Source: Patescibacteria group bacterium
Lineage (GTDB): Bacteria; Patescibacteriota; Patescibacteriia; Patescibacteriales; WJLG01
Assembly (NCBI GenBank): GCA_028716485.1
Contig: JAQUPS010000008.1
Coordinates: 1 to 58,402 of the forward strand
Length of the DNA stretch: 58,402 nucleotides
Direction of reading: 5' to 3'
Below the pieces are notes generated by a model. It saw nothing but the letters and a program-made list of their open reading frames with translations, did no database searches and was not told the origin of the DNA. The translations under genes and the position numbers were made by a program. This document shows, in pieces, positions 4,536 to 39,125 of this stretch (position 1 is the first letter of the stretch; each line of letters begins with the position of its first letter).

Positions 4536-6065
4536 TCAAGCGGATTTTTCCCGATATTGCAGAGCTTCGGCCAGATGGGCGGTGGAAATCGATGGTTCAT
4601 TATCCAGGTCAGCGATAGTGCGAGCTAATTTTAAGAGGCGAAAATAGGAGCGAGCGGAAAGATTGAGTGTGTCGATGGCGCTGCTGATCAGTTTTTTGGC
4701 TTCATCATCAAGCGCGCAGCATCGCCGGGTTTTTTCCGAGCTCATTTCCGCGTTGGTGAAGATTTTTTCGTTCTTGAATCTTTCCGCCTGGATTTCCCGC
4801 GCCGCGGTGACGCGTTTTTTCATGGTTGAAGAATTCTCGCCGGGGAGATTTTCGTCCAATTTTTTGAATTCCATCCGCGGCACTTCCAGTTGCATGTCGA
4901 TGCGGTCCAAAATCGGGCCGGAAATTTTTTTGCGGTAATTCTGGATCTGCATCGCCGAACAGGAACAGGCGCGGGCGCGGTCGCCGAAAAATCCGCAAGG
5001 GCAGGGGTTCATCGAAGCGATTAAAATGAATTTGGCCGGAAAATCCAGATGTCCGGCGGCGCGGCTCACGGTAATGACGCCGTCTTCGAGCGGCTGGCGC
5101 AAAGCTTCCAGAACCGGACGGGGAAATTCGGCGAATTCGTCCAAAAACAAGACGCCGCGATGGGCAAGCGATATCTCTCCCGGGCCGGGCTGGATGCCGC
5201 CGCCGACCAAAGCCACGCCGGAAGCGGTGTGATGCGGGGCGCGGAACGGCCGGGACTTTATCAAACCGCTTTTTTCTTTCAGTTTGCCGGCGACGCTGTA
5301 AATTTTGGTGACCTCTAAGGCTTCGGCAAAAGCCAGATCCGGTAAAATGGAAGGAAAAGTTTTAGCCAGCATTGTTTTACCCGAACCTGGCGGGCCGAAC
5401 ATCAGCAAATTATGTCCGCCGGCCGCGGCTATCTCCATCGCCCGTTTTACCTGCTCCTGGCCTTTCACGTGCGCCATGTCATATTCGATTGGCACATTAA
5501 AAAGTTCCGGATCGCGGTAGGGAAATTCGGGAATGGCGACTTTGCCGCGCAAATGAAAGACCAGCTGCATTAAATTTTTAACTGGAATTACCCTGATTTC
5601 TTTGGCTAATTTGGCTTCGGCCGCGTTGGCTTCCGGCAAAAAGACCGTTGTCTTGCCGGCGCGTCTGGCGCAAAGCGCAACCGGCAGGGCGCCGGTAATC
5701 GGGCGCAGATCGCCGTTCAAAGATAGCTCGCCGGTAAAAATAAAATCGTCCAGATTGATTTTTCCCGAAATGAATTCGCTTTTCTGCAAGATGCTGATGG
5801 CGATCGGCAGATCAAAAGACGGCCCGTGCTTGGGCAGATAGGCCGGCGCCAGATTAACGGTCACTGAAACGCGCGGAAATTCAAAATTGGAATTTTTAAT
5901 GGCGCTCCGCACCCTTTCCCGAGCTTCGGAAACTGCCTTATCCGGCAAGCCGACTAAAAAAATTTTTCCATACTCTCCCCCGCCGGTATCGGCCTCGACC
6001 TCGACCAATTCGGCGTCCAGCCCGACCACCGCGGCGGAAAAAACTTTACTCGACATGAATATCAA
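4536..6065 (-). CDS. comM: YifB/ComM family Mg-chelatase-like AAA+ ATPase
   Basis: GPPGSGKTMLAKTFPSILP, FRAPHHTAS, RGVLFLDEFAEF, MNPCPCGF. Confidence 0.95.
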   Translation of the reverse strand: MIFMSSKVFSAAVVGLDAELVEVEADTGGGEYGKIFLVGLPDKAVSEARERVRSAIKNSNFEFPRVSVTVNLAPAYLPKHGPSFDLPIAISILQKSEFISGKINLDDFIFTGELSLNGDLRPITGALPVALCARRAGKTTVFLPEANAAEAKLAKEIRVIPVKNLMQLVFHLRGKVAIPEFPYRDPELFNVPIEYDMAHVKGQEQVKRAMEIAAAGGHNLLMFGPPGSGKTMLAKTFPSILPDLAFAEALEVTKIYSVAGKLKEKSGLIKSRPFRAPHHTASGVALVGGGIQPGPGEISLAHRGVLFLDEFAEFPRPVLEALRQPLEDGVITVSRAAGHLDFPAKFILIASMNPCPCGFFGDRARACSCSAMQIQNYRKKISGPILDRIDMQLEVPRMEFKKLDENLPGENSSTMKKRVTAAREIQAERFKNEKIFTNAEMSSEKTRRCCALDDEAKKLISSAIDTLNLSARSYFRLLKLARTIADLDNEPSISTAHLAEALQYREKSA

Positions 6066-6116
6066 TTAAAAATTATGCCGACGTAAAGTCGGCATCCCGA
6101 GCTTGCCTCGGGAAAA
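6061..6116. repeat. dispersed two-hairpin repeat (family B, copy 1)
   Basis: ATCAATTAAAAATTATGCCGACGTAAAGTCGGCATCCCGAGCTTGCCTCGGGAAAA; one mismatch to 33333..33388. Confidence 0.85.
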
Positions 6117-6240
6117 ATGAAAAGTTAAAAATTATTTAAAGACGATAACTCTTTTATTATAACATAAAATAGATATTCGGTGATTTAGGTAAATGCGGTT
6201 GACAAAAAAGATTTTTACTGTTAAGTTTAAATTAATTTTT

Positions 6241-6705
6241 ATGAACTATCGGTTGTTAAAATTTATCAAAGAGGCCTTTAAAAATCCCGGGACAGCCTTG
6301 GATTTTGGTTCGGGTGAAGGTATGGATAAGGCCTGTCTTAAAAACCTCGGCTGGATTGTAAGAGGGGTTGATTTAAAATCAGGCACAGATTTAAATTTGC
6401 CTTTTGAGGCAAAAAAAGTTGATTTGGTTTATGCCAACTATCTTTTGCAATTTTTGGATAATAAGAAGCAATTTATTGATAATTGCTTTAATAATTTAAA
6501 AAAGGGAGGGAGACTTTTTTTGCATACATTTGACAAGTCCGACCGGGTTCTTAAAAAAAAAATAAGCACCAAAGAACTTAAGAAATTATTAAGAGATAAA
6601 TTTGAAGATATAGAAATAAATATTTTTAGCGAGTTTGATAATCACCCCAAACATCGTCATTGGCATAAGATATTAGAAGTAACGGCAAAAAAAAGAGAAC
6701 TTTAA
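6241..6705 (+). CDS. SAM-dependent methyltransferase, possible RiPP-cassette member
   Basis: ALDFGSGEGMDKACLKNLGWIVRGVDLKSG; internal ATG at 6241 looks a likelier start than 6193; 22 nt upstream of the radical SAM gene. Confidence 0.75.
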   Translation: MNYRLLKFIKEAFKNPGTALDFGSGEGMDKACLKNLGWIVRGVDLKSGTDLNLPFEAKKVDLVYANYLLQFLDNKKQFIDNCFNNLKKGGRLFLHTFDKSDRVLKKKISTKELKKLLRDKFEDIEINIFSEFDNHPKHRHWHKILEVTAKKREL

Positions 6706-6727
6706 CAATTCAACGAAGGGATAAAAA

Positions 6728-7729
6728 ATGTCCAAAAGATTTTATCTGCAATGGCACATCACCAATCAATGTGGCAATAGATGTCGTCATTGTTATCAGC
6801 AGGGAAATTATGGCGGTCCAGAAGTCACTCTCGAAAGAGCGGCTTTAATTTTGGAAGATTTTTTAAGTCTCTGCAGCCGGCTTAAAGCCGATTCTTATTT
6901 GGCGATAACCGGCGGCGATCCATTTCGGAACAGTGCTTTTAGGTCGATATTAACGGTGGCGTCTTCCAGTTGTTTCTGGGTCAGTATTCTCGCCAATCCG
7001 GAAAACGTTACCGAGGAAAATTTAGAGTGGCTGGAAAAACTAAAGATAAGATTTTTCCAAGTTTCCCTCGACGGTTTGGAAAAAACTCATGATAGCATCC
7101 GTTATCCAGGGAGTTTTAAAAGAACCATGGAGGCCATCAAGCGATTATCAAGAACATCTATCAAGCCCATGGTAATGTCCACCGTCTCTTCTCTCAACTA
7201 CAGAGAAATGCCGGCTGTTATGAGAGAGGTTTATGCGGCTGGCGCCAAAAGATGGTCTTTTGCCAGGTGGACGCCTGTGGGGATTGGCGATTGCGGAATA
7301 AAACCAGATGAGTATATGTGTTTTTTGAGAGAAATTTCTAAAATTCATAAAAAGTTCGAAGCCGAGGGACATGATCCTGTCGATAAAGATCCTTTAACAA
7401 TCCTAATAAACGCTAACGAATGTTCTGACTCTTCGCAAATGGTTGCCGGTGGTTGCGGCATAGGGTCATCGGTTTTGACGCTTTTGCCGGATGACACGGT
7501 AATGGCTTGTCGTAGACATCCAGGTAGCGTCCTTGGTAAGTGGACCACTGAAAATAACTTTCTGTATCACTTTGCGCTTAATCCCAAAATGGATGAGTTT
7601 AGACAATTCGAAAAAATCGAAGGATGTGGAAAGTGTAAATTTTTAAAATATTGCCGGGGTTGCAGGGCTGCAGCCTATTCAGCAACAGGAAATCATTTTG
7701 GCCGCGACCCTCAATGTCCGCTATGTTGA
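6728..7729 (+). CDS. radical SAM/SPASM-domain peptide maturase
   Basis: CGNRCRHC (CxxxCxxC) near the N-terminus; C-terminal CGKCKFLKYCRGC...CPLC SPASM-like cysteines. Confidence 0.9.
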   Translation: MSKRFYLQWHITNQCGNRCRHCYQQGNYGGPEVTLERAALILEDFLSLCSRLKADSYLAITGGDPFRNSAFRSILTVASSSCFWVSILANPENVTEENLEWLEKLKIRFFQVSLDGLEKTHDSIRYPGSFKRTMEAIKRLSRTSIKPMVMSTVSSLNYREMPAVMREVYAAGAKRWSFARWTPVGIGDCGIKPDEYMCFLREISKIHKKFEAEGHDPVDKDPLTILINANECSDSSQMVAGGCGIGSSVLTLLPDDTVMACRRHPGSVLGKWTTENNFLYHFALNPKMDEFRQFEKIEGCGKCKFLKYCRGCRAAAYSATGNHFGRDPQCPLC

Positions 7730-7774
7730 AATAATATTGCCTTTTTCCTTCAGTAAAGAAAGGAGGTGATTAAA

Positions 7775-7891
7775 ATGAAAACCGAAAAAAGAATTGATGA
7801 AGTCCTAAGTAAGCTTCTTCATCAAGGCTTTATTTTTGACGAAAGTGCGGATACTTGCTGTCACTGCAGCTTTACCTGCACTACCGATTAA
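7775..7891 (+). CDS. putative RiPP precursor, 38 aa, Cys-rich C-terminal core
   Basis: MKTEKRIDEVLSKLLHQGFIFDESADTCCHCSFTCTTD*; SD AAAGGAGGTGAT at 7759..7770; follows the rSAM gene; absent from the ORF track (too short). Confidence 0.8.
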   Translation: MKTEKRIDEVLSKLLHQGFIFDESADTCCHCSFTCTTD

Positions 7892-7901
7892 GCTTTCTTT
7901 A

Positions 7902-7936
7902 TAGCACGGGCAGATGATGTCCGTGCTAATTTTTTG
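7902..7936 (+). terminator. rho-independent terminator closing the RiPP cassette
   Basis: TAGCACGG...CCGTGCTA stem then a T-rich run. Confidence 0.8.
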
Positions 7937-8036
7937 TAATAGCTTGTTTTGTTTTTGTCGTTTGATAAAACGAGAGTTTAAATAAATTAAAAAACCGAGA
8001 TTTTAAATAAAAAACCCAGCTTTTAAAAAATAAAAA

Positions 8037-10658
8037 TTATTTTTTAATATAATCCTCCAGCTTGATGCTCAATAATTTGGACACGCCGTTTTCTTGCATC
8101 GTTACGCCGTAGAGGACGCTGGCGCGATGCATCGGGGCGCGGTTATGGGTGATGACGATGAATTGGGTTTTGGACGAGAGATCTTCCAAAATTTTCGCCA
8201 GACGCTCGGAATTGGATTCGTCGAGCGCCGCATCGACTTCATCAAGGAAGACGAACGGCGAAGGGTTGGCGCTGATAATGGCGCAAATCAAGGCGATGGC
8301 AGTGAGAGCTTTTTCGCCGCCGGAAAGCATGTTGATCGAAGCGATTTTTTTCCCGGGCGGGCAGGCCTGGATTTCGATGCCGGCCAAACCAGTGGCGTTA
8401 TATTTGGAAAGCCGTTTGATTTTTTCCCGCAATTCGTTCTGCTCATCTTTTATTTCTTCAGCCGCGCCATCCGATTTTGCGATTTCTTCTTCGTCTTCCA
8501 ATTTGATAATTTTGGCAGAGCCGCCGCTGAAAAGAATCTTGAAGTATTCTTCGAATTTATGGCAGATTTCTTTGAATTCTTTGTCGAATCTTTCCTTGAT
8601 TTTCCCGTCCAGCTCTTTGATTACTCCTTCCAGCGTGCCGATGGCTGATTCCAAATCATCAACCTGCTCTTTGAGGAAATCAAATTTGGTTTTGGTTTCG
8701 TTATATTCTTTTTCCACTTCCGGATCAATGCCGCCGATCAGGTTCAGCTGGTTTTCCAGTTGGCGGATTTTTATTTCCGCCTCTAAAGTATTCACTTCTC
8801 CATCGGCGCGGTTTTCTTTGATATCTTTGAGGTTGTCGAAGCTTTTGCGGATCTCGGTTTCCAAATCTTCCAAGCGAGTTTCGTATTTGGCCGAATCGAT
8901 TTTCAAGACATTTAATTCATTGGCCAGCCGGTTGATTTCCTGCTGGAGATTCTGCCCGGCGCGCTGCAGCTGGAAAAGCTGGGCGCGTTTGGCTTCGCGT
9001 TCGCGGTTGAAAGCGCCGAGTTTTTCTCTGATTTCCCGAACTTGATTATCCGTTTCTGATAGTTCGACTTCCAGTTTGGCTTTTTTATCTTTGACGTCTT
9101 CATTGCTTTTTTTCTCGCCGCTGGATTTTATTTTTTCCGCGGTTGCCGCCAGTTCATTTTTTTGCCGGCGCAAATTTTCCGCTAATAGATTTATTTTTTC
9201 TTCCAGCATTTTCGCGGCCATTTCCGGTTCGGCGGCTCGGCCGAATAGTTCTTCTTTGGCGCGAGCTAATTTCAACAATTCTTCCTGAATTTCGCGCTGT
9301 TTGGCGTAAAAGGCTTCATTATCGCCGGCAGAGGAGCTTAAATTGATGACTTCGGCGATGAGCGTTTTCAGCTTCGCTAAAGTTGCTTTGATTTTCCCAA
9401 TTTCATTTTCTTCTTCCAATTTCTCCAATTCAATTTTAATTTCGCTCAAGAAAGAGTTGATTTTTTTCTCATCGCGGACAATCCCCTTTTTGTCCCCGGT
9501 TAAGCCGCGCAAGACTTTATTCAATTCCTCGATTTTTTCATTCAGCCCTTTCTTCTCGCCGCTGAAATTATTAACCAGATTTTTTTTGGCTTCCAATTCA
9601 TTCTGCCAGCTATTGAGCGCCGTTTCGCTGCCGGCAATTTCTTGTTTCAATTCGCTTTCTTTATTGATTAGCCAGGACAAATCAAAATTACCGGCGGCTT
9701 CCAATTCCAAGGATAATTGCGCGTCGGCGGCGGCGATTTTTTTCAAAACATCTTCCCGCTGTTTTTGGATTTCCGCGGCTTGATTGGATAATCGCTCGTA
9801 TTCCTCGCTCTCGCGGCTTTCTTCCATCTTGCCGAGCTCCGAATTGAGCTTGGCAAGTTCTTCGGTTTTGGCGCGCAAAATTTCTTCCAGCGATAAATAT
9901 TTATTATTGTATTCGGAAAACTTGTCATTCAAATTATGCCAGACGAATTTGAAATAAGACGCGCGGATGTTTTTCAGTTCAGTTTCAATTTCGCCTCTGG
10001 CGCGGAGCTTGTTGACCTGTCGGGTCAAGCTGCGCAAACGCGGTTCGATTTCCGCCAAGAGCATATTGGCTTGGCCGGAATTTTCGTAGCTGGCGATCAA
10101 TTTGGACAAAGATTGCTCGCGCTTAATCTGGAATTGGCGCACGCCGGTCGCTTCGTCGAAAAATTCTTTGCGTTCAGAGGCGGTGGTGGCCAAAAAAGAT
10201 TCCACCATCCCCTGGCCGATGACGCTGTAAGTTTTCTGCCCGACATTCGCTTTGGCCAAAAGAATCTGGATATCGACCAGGCGCACTTTGGCTTCGTTTA
10301 AGAGATAATCGCTTTCGCCTGAGCGGTAAATCCGGCGGGTGATGACCAATTGTGAAAAATCGATCGGCGCCTGGCCGTCTTCGTTATTCAAATGCAAAGA
10401 AACCTCGGCCATGCCCAATTGCCCTTTGGAAGATGAGCCGGAAAAAATGACGTCTTCGCCGGTTTTGGCGCGGATGGTTTTCATACTTTGCTCGCCCAAA
10501 ACCCAGCGCACCGCGTCGGCGATATTGGATTTGCCCGAGCCGTTCGGCCCGACAATGACGGTAATGCCTTTTTTCCCTTTGTTTCCGGCCGGAAAAATCA
10601 GCGTGTTTTTGCTGGCGAAAGATTTAAAACCCTGAATATCCAGTTTTTCTAAATACAT
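8037..10658 (-). CDS. smc: SMC chromosome-segregation ATPase, apparently lacking a hinge domain
   Basis: MYLEKLDIQGFKSFA, GPNGSGKSNIADAVRWVLGEQ, LSGGEKALTAIALICAI, VFLDEVDAALDESN; ~874 aa. Confidence 0.9.
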   Translation of the reverse strand: MYLEKLDIQGFKSFASKNTLIFPAGNKGKKGITVIVGPNGSGKSNIADAVRWVLGEQSMKTIRAKTGEDVIFSGSSSKGQLGMAEVSLHLNNEDGQAPIDFSQLVITRRIYRSGESDYLLNEAKVRLVDIQILLAKANVGQKTYSVIGQGMVESFLATTASERKEFFDEATGVRQFQIKREQSLSKLIASYENSGQANMLLAEIEPRLRSLTRQVNKLRARGEIETELKNIRASYFKFVWHNLNDKFSEYNNKYLSLEEILRAKTEELAKLNSELGKMEESRESEEYERLSNQAAEIQKQREDVLKKIAAADAQLSLELEAAGNFDLSWLINKESELKQEIAGSETALNSWQNELEAKKNLVNNFSGEKKGLNEKIEELNKVLRGLTGDKKGIVRDEKKINSFLSEIKIELEKLEEENEIGKIKATLAKLKTLIAEVINLSSSAGDNEAFYAKQREIQEELLKLARAKEELFGRAAEPEMAAKMLEEKINLLAENLRRQKNELAATAEKIKSSGEKKSNEDVKDKKAKLEVELSETDNQVREIREKLGAFNREREAKRAQLFQLQRAGQNLQQEINRLANELNVLKIDSAKYETRLEDLETEIRKSFDNLKDIKENRADGEVNTLEAEIKIRQLENQLNLIGGIDPEVEKEYNETKTKFDFLKEQVDDLESAIGTLEGVIKELDGKIKERFDKEFKEICHKFEEYFKILFSGGSAKIIKLEDEEEIAKSDGAAEEIKDEQNELREKIKRLSKYNATGLAGIEIQACPPGKKIASINMLSGGEKALTAIALICAIISANPSPFVFLDEVDAALDESNSERLAKILEDLSSKTQFIVITHNRAPMHRASVLYGVTMQENGVSKLLSIKLEDYIKK

Positions 10659-10818
10659 CGAAAATAAATTAAAAATTAAAAATGAAAAATTAAAAGTAAT
10701 TTTCCTAAGCTTATTATACATTATTTATTGTCTCATTGCTATATTGTTAAATTGCCGGCTGTTAACAAGATACGATTAAGTTGTTAAGATGACAATGTAA
10801 CAATTTAACAATTCAGCC

Positions 10819-12037: not shown

Positions 12038-12688
12038 ATGAGTTATCCAAGGAGGGAGAAAGTCAAATGGAGCGCGGATTTGGCATATGTTGTCGGGCTA
12101 ATAACCAGCGATGGCTGCCTTTCCAAAAATGGCAGGCATATTAGCTTGACTTCCAAAGATGAGGATTTACTAAATACGGTTAAGAAAATTTTAGGACTTA
12201 AAGTTAAAACAGGTTATAAGGTTTGCGGCTTTAGCAACCACAAATGCCCCAATATACAATTCGGCGACGTTATTTTTTACAGATGGCTTGAATCAATCGG
12301 CTTAATGCCGAAAAAATCAAAGATCATTGGCAGCTTGAAAGTTCCTAAAAAATACTTTTTTGATTTTTTAAGAGGTTTATTCGATGGTGATGGCTGTTTT
12401 TATTCATATTGGGACAAGCGTTGGAAAAGTAGTTTTATGTATTATGTTTGTTTTTGTTCTGCCAGCAAAAAGTTTTTAGTATGGTTGCAAAAATCATTAT
12501 TCGAATATTTAAAAGTAAAGGGAGATTTAAAGACTGGTACAAATATTTGGGATTTAAGATTCGCCAAAAGAGAAGGTTTAAAAATAATTAAAAAAATGTA
12601 TCATTCGCCGGACGTTAAGTGTCTGGGCAGAAAAAAGAAAAAGATTATAGCAGCTTTTGAGGAGAGCGGAGTAAAGGTTAAAATTTAA
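12038..12688 (+). CDS. free-standing LAGLIDADG-type homing endonuclease
   Basis: LAYVVGLITSDGCLSKNGRHISLTSKD and FLRGLFDGDGCF motifs. Confidence 0.85.
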   Translation: MSYPRREKVKWSADLAYVVGLITSDGCLSKNGRHISLTSKDEDLLNTVKKILGLKVKTGYKVCGFSNHKCPNIQFGDVIFYRWLESIGLMPKKSKIIGSLKVPKKYFFDFLRGLFDGDGCFYSYWDKRWKSSFMYYVCFCSASKKFLVWLQKSLFEYLKVKGDLKTGTNIWDLRFAKREGLKIIKKMYHSPDVKCLGRKKKKIIAAFEESGVKVKI

Positions 12689-36097: not shown

Positions 36098-36184
36098 GGA
36101 GATGTGCCAGAGTGGTTGAATGGGCCGCACTCGAAATGCGGTATGTCCGGAAGGGCATCAGAGGTTCGAATCCTCTCATCTCCG
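36098..36184 (+). tRNA. tRNA-Ser(CGA)
   Basis: GGAGATG...CATCTCC, loop CTCGAAA, long variable arm. Confidence 0.95.
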
Positions 36185-36228
36185 CCTTCGCTCGCCGAAG
36201 CGAGCTACGGCGGACAAAGTCCGCCGGT
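36185..36228. repeat. family C palindromic repeat abutting tRNA-Ser
   Basis: CCTTCGCTCGCCGAAGCGAGCTACGGCGGACAAAGTCCGCCGG. Confidence 0.8.
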
Positions 36229-36380
36229 AGATTGCGAAAGATAGACACATAAATAACCTGACCTGCGTCAGGTTGTTTTGGTTAGACAAAACCTTGACAA
36301 TTTATAAATTTAGTGTTATCATTAATTTCAAACGAAACGATTGCTATATCTGTACATTGCCAACCAAAAGGAGAACAATC

Positions 36381-36803
36381 ATGAATTTTATTACCGCGCT
36401 TCTGAACGCGTTTTTAATTTCTCACGCTCTGGAATTAGGGATGATTCCGAACAGCGACGTGAGCCTGTATGCAATTCCTTATCATCAGGAATATTTGCAT
36501 ACCGAGGAGAGTATGTATGCGGAGTATTCAACGAAGATGACGATTGCCAAAATTGGTTTCGTTACCGGCGGAGTTACCACCTACTGGTGGAATTACTACT
36601 CTGACCAACAGAAATGCGGCTATCCCTTCCGCATGGATTATAAGATCGGGGGAGGGGTGAAGTATAAATGGATTACCTTGGGAGTTGATTACGGATGCTA
36701 TCATCCGATCGCGCCCCGGGAAGAAAATGTTCCGCTTCCCAGACTCGATGCCAATTTTACCCGAATTTTTCTTCGGTTTGAAACGAAGAATTTTTCTGAA
36801 TGA
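36381..36803 (+). CDS. hypothetical protein
   Basis: ATG preceded by AAAGGAGAAC; 36273 start is out of place. Confidence 0.6.
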   Translation: MNFITALLNAFLISHALELGMIPNSDVSLYAIPYHQEYLHTEESMYAEYSTKMTIAKIGFVTGGVTTYWWNYYSDQQKCGYPFRMDYKIGGGVKYKWITLGVDYGCYHPIAPREENVPLPRLDANFTRIFLRFETKNFSE

Positions 36804-36899
36804 GTTTAATCGAACCCCGGCTTAGCTGAAATGCTACCGGGGTTCTTATTATTCTAACCAACTTATTTCTTGCTTTTTTTGCTAAAATTTTATAGTATT

Positions 36900-37012
36900 A
36901 AAAACAGTCCCTCACCATTTTTAATAAGCCTTGAGAAAATACCCTAAAATAGCGGATACTCGTCTTGAATGAATTTCGTTTATTTTATTAAAAATGGTGA
37001 GGGACTGTTTTT
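36900..37012. repeat. MITE-like element with 28-29 bp perfect terminal inverted repeats
   Basis: AAAAACAGTCCCTCACCATTTTTAATAA (36900..36927) vs its reverse complement (36985..37012). Confidence 0.85.
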
Positions 37013-37025
37013 ATTCGGGATATCA

Positions 37026-37096
37026 CGGGTTGTAGTATAATGGTAGTACGCGTGCATGGGGTGCATGTAGCCGCGGTTCGATTCCGCGCAGCCCGA
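37026..37096 (+). tRNA. tRNA-Pro(GGG)
   Basis: CGGGTTG...CAGCCCG, loop ATGGGGT. Confidence 0.9.
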
Positions 37097-37282
37097 CAGA
37101 ACGCATACCAGGTTCCCACCCATAAGGTGGTCCGCCTTTGGCGGAAATTCCCAGTACCCCGACGATTCGGATTTCAGAAGTCGGAATTCGGATTTCGGAT
37201 AAAGATCTAAAATATTTTGTCCAAACAAAATTACTTAAGCGATTTATCCGAAATCCGATGTCCGAAATCCGATTTTTGATAC

Positions 37283-37356
37283 GGGTAATTAGCTCAGTTG
37301 GTTAGAGCGCTGCATTCACATTGCAGAGGTCATAGGTTCGAGTCCTATATTACCCA
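37283..37356 (+). tRNA. tRNA-Val(CAC)
   Basis: GGGTAAT...ATTACCC, loop TTCACAT. Confidence 0.95.
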
Positions 37357-37360
37357 CATT

Positions 37361-37431
37361 GGGCCTATAGTCTAGCGGTACGACGCTACATTCGCATTGT
37401 AGAGGCGGCGGTTCGACTCCGCCTAGGTCCA
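37361..37431 (+). tRNA. tRNA-Ala(CGC)
   Basis: GGGCCTA...TAGGTCC, loop TTCGCAT. Confidence 0.9.
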
Positions 37432-37544
37432 CAGATCGGATTTCAGAAGTCGGAATTAGGATTAAACGATAAAAATATTTTTATTGAGATGAAATTGTTT
37501 ATCGGATATCCGATTTCTGATTTCCGAAATCCGATATCCGATAG

Positions 37545-37616
37545 GCGGGAGTAATTCAACGGTAGAATGTTTGCTTCCCAAGCAAAATGTTGCGGGTTCG
37601 ATTCCCGTCTCCCGCT
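37545..37616 (+). tRNA. tRNA-Gly(CCC)
   Basis: GCGGGAG...CTCCCGC, loop TTCCCAA. Confidence 0.95.
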
Positions 37617-37735
37617 CATCGGATTTCGGATGTCAGATATTGGATGTCGGATTTAGCGTTTAAAAAGTTTTATTCAAATAAAACAGTTTTAGCGATTTAT
37701 CCGAATTCCGAAATCAGAAATCCGATATCGGAAAC

Positions 37736-37817
37736 GGGCGCGTGGCGAAATTGGCAGACGCATACGCTTCAGGTGCGTACGAAGCAATTCATGTGGGTTC
37801 AAGTCCCACCGCGCCCA
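37736..37817 (+). tRNA. tRNA-Leu(CAG)
   Basis: GGGCGCG...CGCGCCC, loop TTCAGGT, long variable arm. Confidence 0.95.
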
Positions 37818-37875
37818 CCTTCGTCCGCCGAAGCGGACTACGGCGGGCAAAGCCCACCGTTTCCGCGAAGGCGGA
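37818..37875. repeat. family C palindromic repeat abutting tRNA-Leu(CAG)
   Basis: CCTTCGTCCGCCGAAGCGGACTACGGCGGGCAAAGCCCACC... Confidence 0.8.
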
Positions 37876-37980
37876 ACATCGATTTGCGATTTCAGATTTT
37901 TGATTGACGATTTGTTTTTTATAGTTTATGGTATCTATAAAGATAAATCGAAAATCGTAAATCTGAAATCGTAAATCGTT

Positions 37981-38017
37981 TCGGGGTATGGCCTAATTGG
38001 CTATGGCGCACGCTTCG
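37981..38017 (+). pseudogene. 5' half of tRNA-Pro, exact 37-bp duplicate of 38084..38120
   Basis: TCGGGGTATGGCCTAATTGGCTATGGCGCACGCTTCG then a family C palindrome. Confidence 0.85.
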
Positions 38018-38084
38018 CCCGCCTTCGCTAAGGCTTCGGCGGATAAAGGTGCTTGAAGTGATTTTTAAAGTTCGCGAAAATGGT

Positions 38085-38158
38085 CGGGGTATGGCCTAAT
38101 TGGCTATGGCGCACGCTTCGGGTGCGTGAGGTTCTGGGTTCGAGTCCCAGTACCCCGA
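38085..38158 (+). tRNA. tRNA-Pro(CGG)
   Basis: CGGGGTA...TACCCCG, loop TTCGGGT. Confidence 0.95.
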
Positions 38159-38171
38159 CCATTTTCACGAG

Positions 38172-38300: not shown

Positions 38301-39125
38301 ATGAGCGAAAGAAAGATAAAAATCGCCTGGTTTGGCAAACATTTCGGCGAAGAGCCGCCTTTAACCGGTTCCAGCGGAGCCGGGACGATTTTCTTTTCCG
38401 GCTGTAATTTGCATTGCGTTTTTTGCCAGAACTGGCAGATCAGTCAGCAAGATACAGGCAGGGAATATTCAGTTAAGGAGCTGGCGCAAATTATGCTGAA
38501 CTTGCAAAAGCAGGGCGCGGTCAATATTGATTTAGTGACGCCGTCGCCGTGGCGCCGTGAAGTCAAGCAAGCGATAATTATTGCCAAAAAAAATAGTTTG
38601 CAAATTCCGGTCGCCTGGAATTCCAACGCCTACGAATCTGTCACTGCTATTAAAGACCTGGACGGCCTGATTGATATTTATTTGCCTGATTTTAAATATG
38701 GCGACGATTTTGCCGCGGCAAAATATTCGCGCGCGCCAAAATATTCCGAGGTGGCGGAAAAAGCGATTCGCGAAATGTATCGCCAGGTCGGCTTGCTGGA
38801 AACTGACGAAAATGGTTTGGCGAAAAAAGGCTTGATAATTCGACACCTGATTTTACCCGATAATTTAAAAAATACTTTTGCCGCCTTGGAAAAAATCGCG
38901 GCGATTGATAAAAATATTCATTTAAGTTTAATGAGCCAGTATCATCCGGTCTATAACTCGGCCGAATTTCCGGAATTGAACCGACCCGTGTCCGCCGCAG
39001 AAATAATTGCCGCAGAAAATAAAAAATTGGAACTCGGTTTGGGCAACGGCTGGACGCAGGAGGCCGACGCGAGCGAAATTTTTTTGCCGAATTTTTTACA
39101 AAAAAATCCTTTCCGGCAAGATTGA
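38301..39125 (+). CDS. radical SAM protein (PflA-like, COG1313-type)
   Basis: FFSGCNLHCVFCQNWQISQ. Confidence 0.85.
   Translation: MSERKIKIAWFGKHFGEEPPLTGSSGAGTIFFSGCNLHCVFCQNWQISQQDTGREYSVKELAQIMLNLQKQGAVNIDLVTPSPWRREVKQAIIIAKKNSLQIPVAWNSNAYESVTAIKDLDGLIDIYLPDFKYGDDFAAAKYSRAPKYSEVAEKAIREMYRQVGLLETDENGLAKKGLIIRHLILPDNLKNTFAALEKIAAIDKNIHLSLMSQYHPVYNSAEFPELNRPVSAAEIIAAENKKLELGLGNGWTQEADASEIFLPNFLQKNPFRQD

Follow-up and report, generated by a model that had tools for sequence, protein, structure and literature searches.

A cassette of three plus-strand genes, found in a 58,402-nt window of Patescibacteria DNA (the whole stretch analysed here, contig JAQUPS010000008.1), very probably directs the synthesis of a chemically modified, cysteine-rich peptide. 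We are confident, with some reserve, that it represents a minimal RiPP operon in which a 38-aa precursor is combined with a SPASM modifying enzyme and a TehB-like methyltransferase. It is best placed with the ACGX-type radical SAM RiPP systems, as a new variant whose precursor is of a new type. A preliminary description, made from the bare sequence, had proposed a radical SAM RiPP system in a CPR-like organism; this proposal is upheld by the joint conservation of maturase and peptide and by the Cys-rich ORFs that are kept throughout the family.

Organization and genomic setting of the cassette

The open frames of the methyltransferase (6193-6705), the radical SAM/SPASM maturase (6728-7729) and the Cys-dense peptide (7775-7891), all present on the + strand, are separated by only 22 nt and 45 nt, respectively. 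They are followed by an intrinsic terminator (7902..7938, + strand) with an 11-bp stem containing six GC pairs and a T tail, stem and T-run being located at 7902-7928. The earlier picture of three tightly spaced genes ending in a terminator holds. Upstream of the cassette, a promoter scan performed no better than on shuffled sequences, and a TTGACA at 6199 was therefore discounted as promoter evidence. The flanking genes, both on the opposite strand and named from reading their sequences, are that of a YifB/ComM-like ATPase on one side (4536-6065) and that of an SMC protein on the other (8037-10721). Among the neighbouring genes, no dedicated exporter or protease was recognised beside the window cassette, in line with the preliminary description, or around most of the CPR relatives. 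The G+C content is 32% for the methyltransferase, 44% for the maturase and 39% for the peptide gene, compared to 53% in the gene preceding the cassette. The host genome comprises 1.15 Mb in 28 contigs and is 99% complete.

Elsewhere in the window, a free-standing LAGLIDADG-type endonuclease ORF (12038-12688) is located between a gene whose sequence resembles that of ribosomal protein L19 and tRNA-Leu(gag). Seven tRNA genes lie within 2.1 kb (36098-38161), followed by a second radical SAM gene at 38301.

The maturase as an outlier related to the ACGX enzymes

The maturase (6728..7729, + strand, 333 aa) was compared with the NCBIfam families, a check suggested in the preliminary description. A peptide-maturase family, TIGR04340 (ACGX maturase), is the top match with 227.5 bits and an E value of 2.5e-67; the cut-off of this model is 400 bits, and both the window protein and its relative at locus L044 (238.7 bits) remain below it. 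The second match, SbtM (TIGR04082), reaches 165.9 of 350 bits and covers positions 198-515 of 516. Heme and other SPASM families are far behind these two (heme b synthase 92 bits, NirJ 83 bits), and the PapB and SkfB models score 63.2 of 340 and 72 of 300 bits. The architecture of a known peptide maturase, as originally proposed, is borne out, while the proposed placement among sactipeptide-, ranthipeptide- or mycofactocin-type enzymes gives way to the nearer ACGX system.

The predicted site of the catalytic [4Fe-4S] cluster, CxxxCxxC (CGNRCRHC, residues 15-22, 6770..6793, + strand), and the SPASM cysteines C243, C261, C300, C303, C309, C312 and C330 (7454..7717, + strand) had been noted before, and all of them are invariant in 25 aligned members. 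Invariant residues common to the window protein and the ACGX maturases are QWH, CxxxCxxC, GC..G, CRR and CRGC..DPQC. As fewer than ten residues precede the radical SAM core, the enzyme has no fused RRE, which agrees with the first description of its N-terminus. PDB neighbours of the predicted structure (pLDDT 89) include SkfB, SuiB, anSME, ChlB, CteB and PqqE, and a profile built from 25 family members yields a similar set of neighbours by sequence.

The precursor peptide

The gene of the precursor peptide MKTEKRIDEVLSKLLHQGFIFDESADTCCHCSFTCTTD (38 aa, 7775..7891, + strand) is preceded by a strong Shine-Dalgarno sequence, AGGAGGTGA (7761..7769, + strand), ending 5 nt before the ATG. Its product is alone among 472 window ORFs of 25-80 aa in carrying at least four cysteines within the last 15 residues. 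A homologous peptide of 37 aa, MKYAQETQEALEALIAQGFVFDDEDDTCCHCSFSCTD, is encoded directly 3' of the stop codon of the 58%-identical L044 maturase, the same downstream place as in the window. Both peptides contain the block DTCCHCSF, and the predicted core region DTCCHCSFTCTTD (7850..7888, + strand) is the best-conserved part between them. The two genes differ at codon positions 1, 2 and 3 in 12, 10 and 26 cases, respectively, as would be expected under purifying selection on a protein. Judged from its Shine-Dalgarno sequence, the L044 homologue and the codon-position bias, the small ORF with the Cys-dense end that the preliminary description had picked out is a real gene.

Among 381 genomes of the class, an exact DNA pattern for DTCCHCSF matched only the window genome (G000) and that of L044 (G626). 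With two mismatches allowed, scattered further matches appeared; these are taken as chance, because a reversed-pattern control also matched several genomes. The leader of the window peptide lacks the NxW-type motif of other precursors in the family, and no selenocysteine signal was seen in this peptide. Neither the window nor the L044 peptide has an NCBIfam match; the control, Roseburia AcgA on TIGR04341, gave 73.8 bits. The precursor is of a previously unnamed type.

Spread and phylogeny of the maturase family

A scan of genome contigs yielded at least 80 maturase relatives, to which whole-genome searches added further ones, and a maximum-likelihood tree was calculated from 95 maturases. The closest one among the matches listed, L044, belongs to Patescibacteria RA.bin129, which is of the same class as the window organism and of a different order. 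Together the two form a separate clade (support 100/99) outside most other ACGX-type maturases. The remaining branches comprise a Pacearchaeota row (L045), the L130 row, L048/L126/L127, a CPR branch (L029, L046, L047 and L069) with peptides such as DCCPDPCTCTGCSEWD, Clostridia and Bacilli with CSCNC-type peptides, and a large ACGX-repeat branch. Several branches are long, which leaves the branch order near the root uncertain. The organisms that carry ACGX-type maturases include rumen methanogens, Clostridia, Treponema, Synergistetes, Bacteroidales and CPR.

Among the matches listed, a Cys-rich small ORF adjoins the maturase in all CPR relatives and in nearly all others. Outside the window clade these ORFs lie upstream of the maturase, and most have a (F/Y/N)xW-type leader motif. 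For the Clostridia NxW member L058, the maturase passes TIGR04340 with 457.6 bits and the peptide is not recognised by TIGR04341; the TIGR04340 family is therefore already wider than the named TIGR04341 peptide. Co-conservation, which the preliminary description had put forward as a check on all three genes, is found for maturase and peptide, kept together in L044 and with small ORFs family-wide, whereas the methyltransferase is missing in L044.

The window-type cassette was not found in the other genomes searched of the genus, family or order, and a search of close kin gave no orthologue in the same-genus/family genomes G001 and G002. Hence, the cassette is not a clade-wide trait; from sequence, its patchy presence and lower G+C content would fit a horizontal gain.

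Individual loci of the family show further features. In G707 (L148, 2351-8440), the cassette lies between ORFs that, by reading, resemble serine recombinases and a transposase, surroundings that suggest a mobile setting. A scan of viral contigs gave a single ACGX-repeat locus with peptide and maturase, L124, on a putative viral contig from IMG/VR. The Pacearchaeota locus L045 (3928-6032) encodes a 93-aa peptide with numerous repeats of the CxxC type; between peptide and maturase, a C39-like peptidase is encoded on the opposite strand. At L046, a gene downstream of the methyltransferase (5793-7133) encodes another radical SAM protein, different from the maturase.

A TehB-like methyltransferase as accessory partner

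The first gene encodes a TehB-like class I SAM-dependent methyltransferase (6241..6705, + strand), assigned by Pfam, fold and profile. Its frame is open back to 6193, but position 6241 (MNYRLL..., 154 aa) appears the more likely start, as the alignment with homologues begins close to this point and nothing supports the 16 additional residues. The protein matches Pfam Methyltransf_23 (42 bits) and Methyltransf_11 (39 bits), and its model resembles the TehB fold with TMq values of up to 0.83. The NCBIfam TehB models score weakly, below their cut-offs (16.5 of 303 and 12.9 of 218 bits); the linked methyltransferases of relatives do pass Pfam TehB.

Related methyltransferases adjoin the maturase in 15 of the 20 loci outside the ACGX-repeat branch and in none of the 69 inside it (Fisher p 4e-13, a value that overstates independence because the loci are related by descent). 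The linked gene is located upstream of the maturase in the window and in L072, downstream in the same orientation in L048, L126 and six Clostridia, and downstream and convergent in L029, L046, L047 and L069; in L127, one gene separates the two. Despite shared descent, these three different arrangements point to a functional link to the maturase. Profiles built without each clade still recover the methyltransferases of that clade (1e-24 to 4e-7), and a profile of the linked methyltransferases of other clades detects the window protein at 1e-15. The same leave-clade-out profiles found no methyltransferases in the ACGX-repeat loci, and elsewhere they found unrelated ones.

Beside the L044 maturase the methyltransferase is absent, and no copy was detectable elsewhere in that genome. 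We therefore regard it as an accessory partner or optional tailoring step and not as a core part; its place in the cassette, as first described, is supported by its recurrence and qualified by its dispensability. Its absence from L044, together with an identity of only 22-30% to the other linked methyltransferases, could also mean that the gene is an unrelated neighbour and that the system has two genes. We consider this unlikely in view of the 22-nt gap within one operon, the linkage in 15/20 non-ACGX-repeat loci in three arrangements, the detection of the window protein at 1e-15, and a C-terminal HWH...AKK motif shared with the Clostridia copies.

In six Clostridia genomes, the reading frame of the methyltransferase gene that follows the maturase is interrupted, with a +1 shift, at a single conserved site (L058 6123-6700, L060 6120-6700, L061 6160-6740, L063 6123-6700, L066 6120-6700 and L075 1883-2470). 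This site is invariably an in-frame CGG with (A/T)TA after it; the frame downstream is open, and changes in it are biased to third positions (176/108/411). The pattern suggests a programmed +1 frameshift at a rare arginine codon. In an unlinked paralogue, L154, a single frame runs through the site. The genome of L063 contains a second paralogue, L157 (1501-2080, contig C1 of G811), which is also interrupted close to this site and looks decayed, as several frame changes are needed.

Proposed mechanism and alternative readings

The genomic pairing makes a strong case that the 38-aa peptide is the substrate of the maturase. Residues ~1-25 would form a leader with the conserved LxxLxxQGF(I/V)FD, followed by a core DTCCHCSF(T/S)CT(T)D. 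The SPASM enzyme would bind the leader without a fused RRE domain, and its 5'-deoxyadenosyl radical would abstract a hydrogen atom at a core residue. This residue would then be captured by a cysteine, which may itself be a ligand of an auxiliary Fe-S cluster. SPASM chemistry of this kind has been reviewed (PMC8326336). By analogy, thioether chemistry on the core is moderately well supported: intramolecular links from Cys to neighbouring Asp, Thr, Ser or His are most likely, each with a loss of 2 Da, and, as known from ranthipeptides, the partner may be a conserved Asp, Thr or Ser. The TehB-like methyltransferase would then probably methylate the product. TehB prefers soft nucleophiles; by this analogy a free Cys thiol is the most plausible site, and S-methylation is put forward weakly. 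The product may stay in the cell or leave by a general route.

In favour of the RiPP reading, the fold neighbours of the enzyme are RiPP maturases such as SkfB, SuiB, ChlB and CteB. Counting against it are the lack of an adjacent protease or exporter and of a methyltransferase in L044, the occurrence of the exact type in two genomes only, a leader without the NxW-type motif, the downstream instead of upstream position of the peptide, and the absence of any family product from the literature searched.

Instead of thioethers, the maturase could form some other modification, for example a heterocycle of the thio-oxazole type, which is implied by the NCBI name of SbtM, the second-best family (166 bits over positions 198-515 of 516). 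We judge this improbable: the window enzyme lacks the first 197 positions of SbtM, the peptide shows no selenocysteine signal, and the chemistry ascribed to SbtM is in turn a name in a database, on which our literature search found no paper. The CCHC arrangement, a metal-ligand pattern, together with the small size of the peptide (38 aa) and the missing exporter and protease, would also suit a small metal-binding protein or a regulator, with the radical SAM enzyme acting on another substrate. This is considerably less probable, as peptide and maturase stay paired across genomes of different orders and the Cys-rich ORFs of the family differ widely in spacing (CTCTGC, ACGX repeats, CSCNC, CNCGGGC), which no single metal site would explain; the mature peptide may nevertheless bind metal. 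A further reading takes the peptide as incidental and the maturase as a sulfatase maturase or as a SPASM enzyme that acts on something other than peptides, such as a tetrapyrrole (AhbD/NirJ type). This is highly improbable despite the heme b synthase and NirJ matches (92 and 83 bits), since TIGR04340 scores 227 bits and the anSME model (TIGR03942) is not in the top 25 families for the window protein. In addition, reading of the adjacent genes revealed neither a sulfatase nor heme genes, and the peptide is conserved beside the maturase. The sulfatase-maturase and heme-enzyme identities were rejected on the NCBIfam scores; the two findings that the preliminary description had named as fatal to its proposal, homologues without the small ORF and an anaerobic sulfatase maturase, did not materialise.

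Relation to known systems

With the ACGX system (AcgM TIGR04340/AcgA TIGR04341), the cassette shares the architecture, length and invariant residues of the maturase and a small adjoining Cys-containing peptide. It differs in that the maturase reaches 227 of 400 bits and falls into a separate deep clade, the peptide has no TIGR04341 match, ACGX repeats or NxW-type leader, and a methyltransferase is present, whereas none was seen in ACGX-repeat loci. In addition, the peptide of the window and L044 is encoded downstream of the maturase, the ACGX precursor directly upstream. The NxW-leader systems (L029, L046-L048, L069, L126, L127 and L058-L075), for which we know of no name, likewise combine a Cys-rich peptide, an ACGX-type maturase and a TehB-like methyltransferase. 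Their peptide is upstream, with a (F/Y/N)xW-type leader and different core spacing, and their methyltransferase is downstream or convergent, unlike the upstream gene of the window. The selenobiotic-type maturase SbtM resembles the window enzyme over the rSAM/SPASM part, but its N-terminal 197 positions have no counterpart and no selenocysteine was seen. SCIFF/ranthipeptide and sactipeptide maturases (CteB, PapB, SkfB, AlbA) are alike in fold, auxiliary SPASM clusters and Cys-dense substrates, whereas the window maturase lacks their N-terminal RRE, scores low on the PapB and SkfB models and is accompanied by a different precursor.

RiPP clusters in CPR bacteria are already known from graspetides (PMC8939145), so the cassette is not novel by virtue of its host; those clusters rely on ATP-grasp chemistry, with unrelated enzymes and precursors. 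Our literature search on ACGX, TIGR04340, SbtM and radical SAM RiPPs in CPR returned these graspetides only and nothing on the family, including no determined product for any member. On a more speculative and rather doubtful reading, the window and L044 would constitute a RiPP class of their own, defined by the leader LxxLxxQGFxFD and a CCHCSFxC core. The SPASM enzyme would crosslink the cysteines of this core and the TehB-like enzyme would methylate a remaining thiol, and a symbiotic CPR cell might use the resulting peptide without a dedicated exporter, either internally, as a cofactor or metal ligand, or as a factor directed at its host.

ACGX-type maturases are widespread, yet we found no paper on their chemistry. 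With 38 aa and four cysteines, the window peptide is among the smallest substrates seen here, which makes it a simple system in which to test the reaction. With the CPR members, the ACGX-type family reaches into deep branches, and these members suggest that a TehB-like methyltransferase belonged to its early set of partners.
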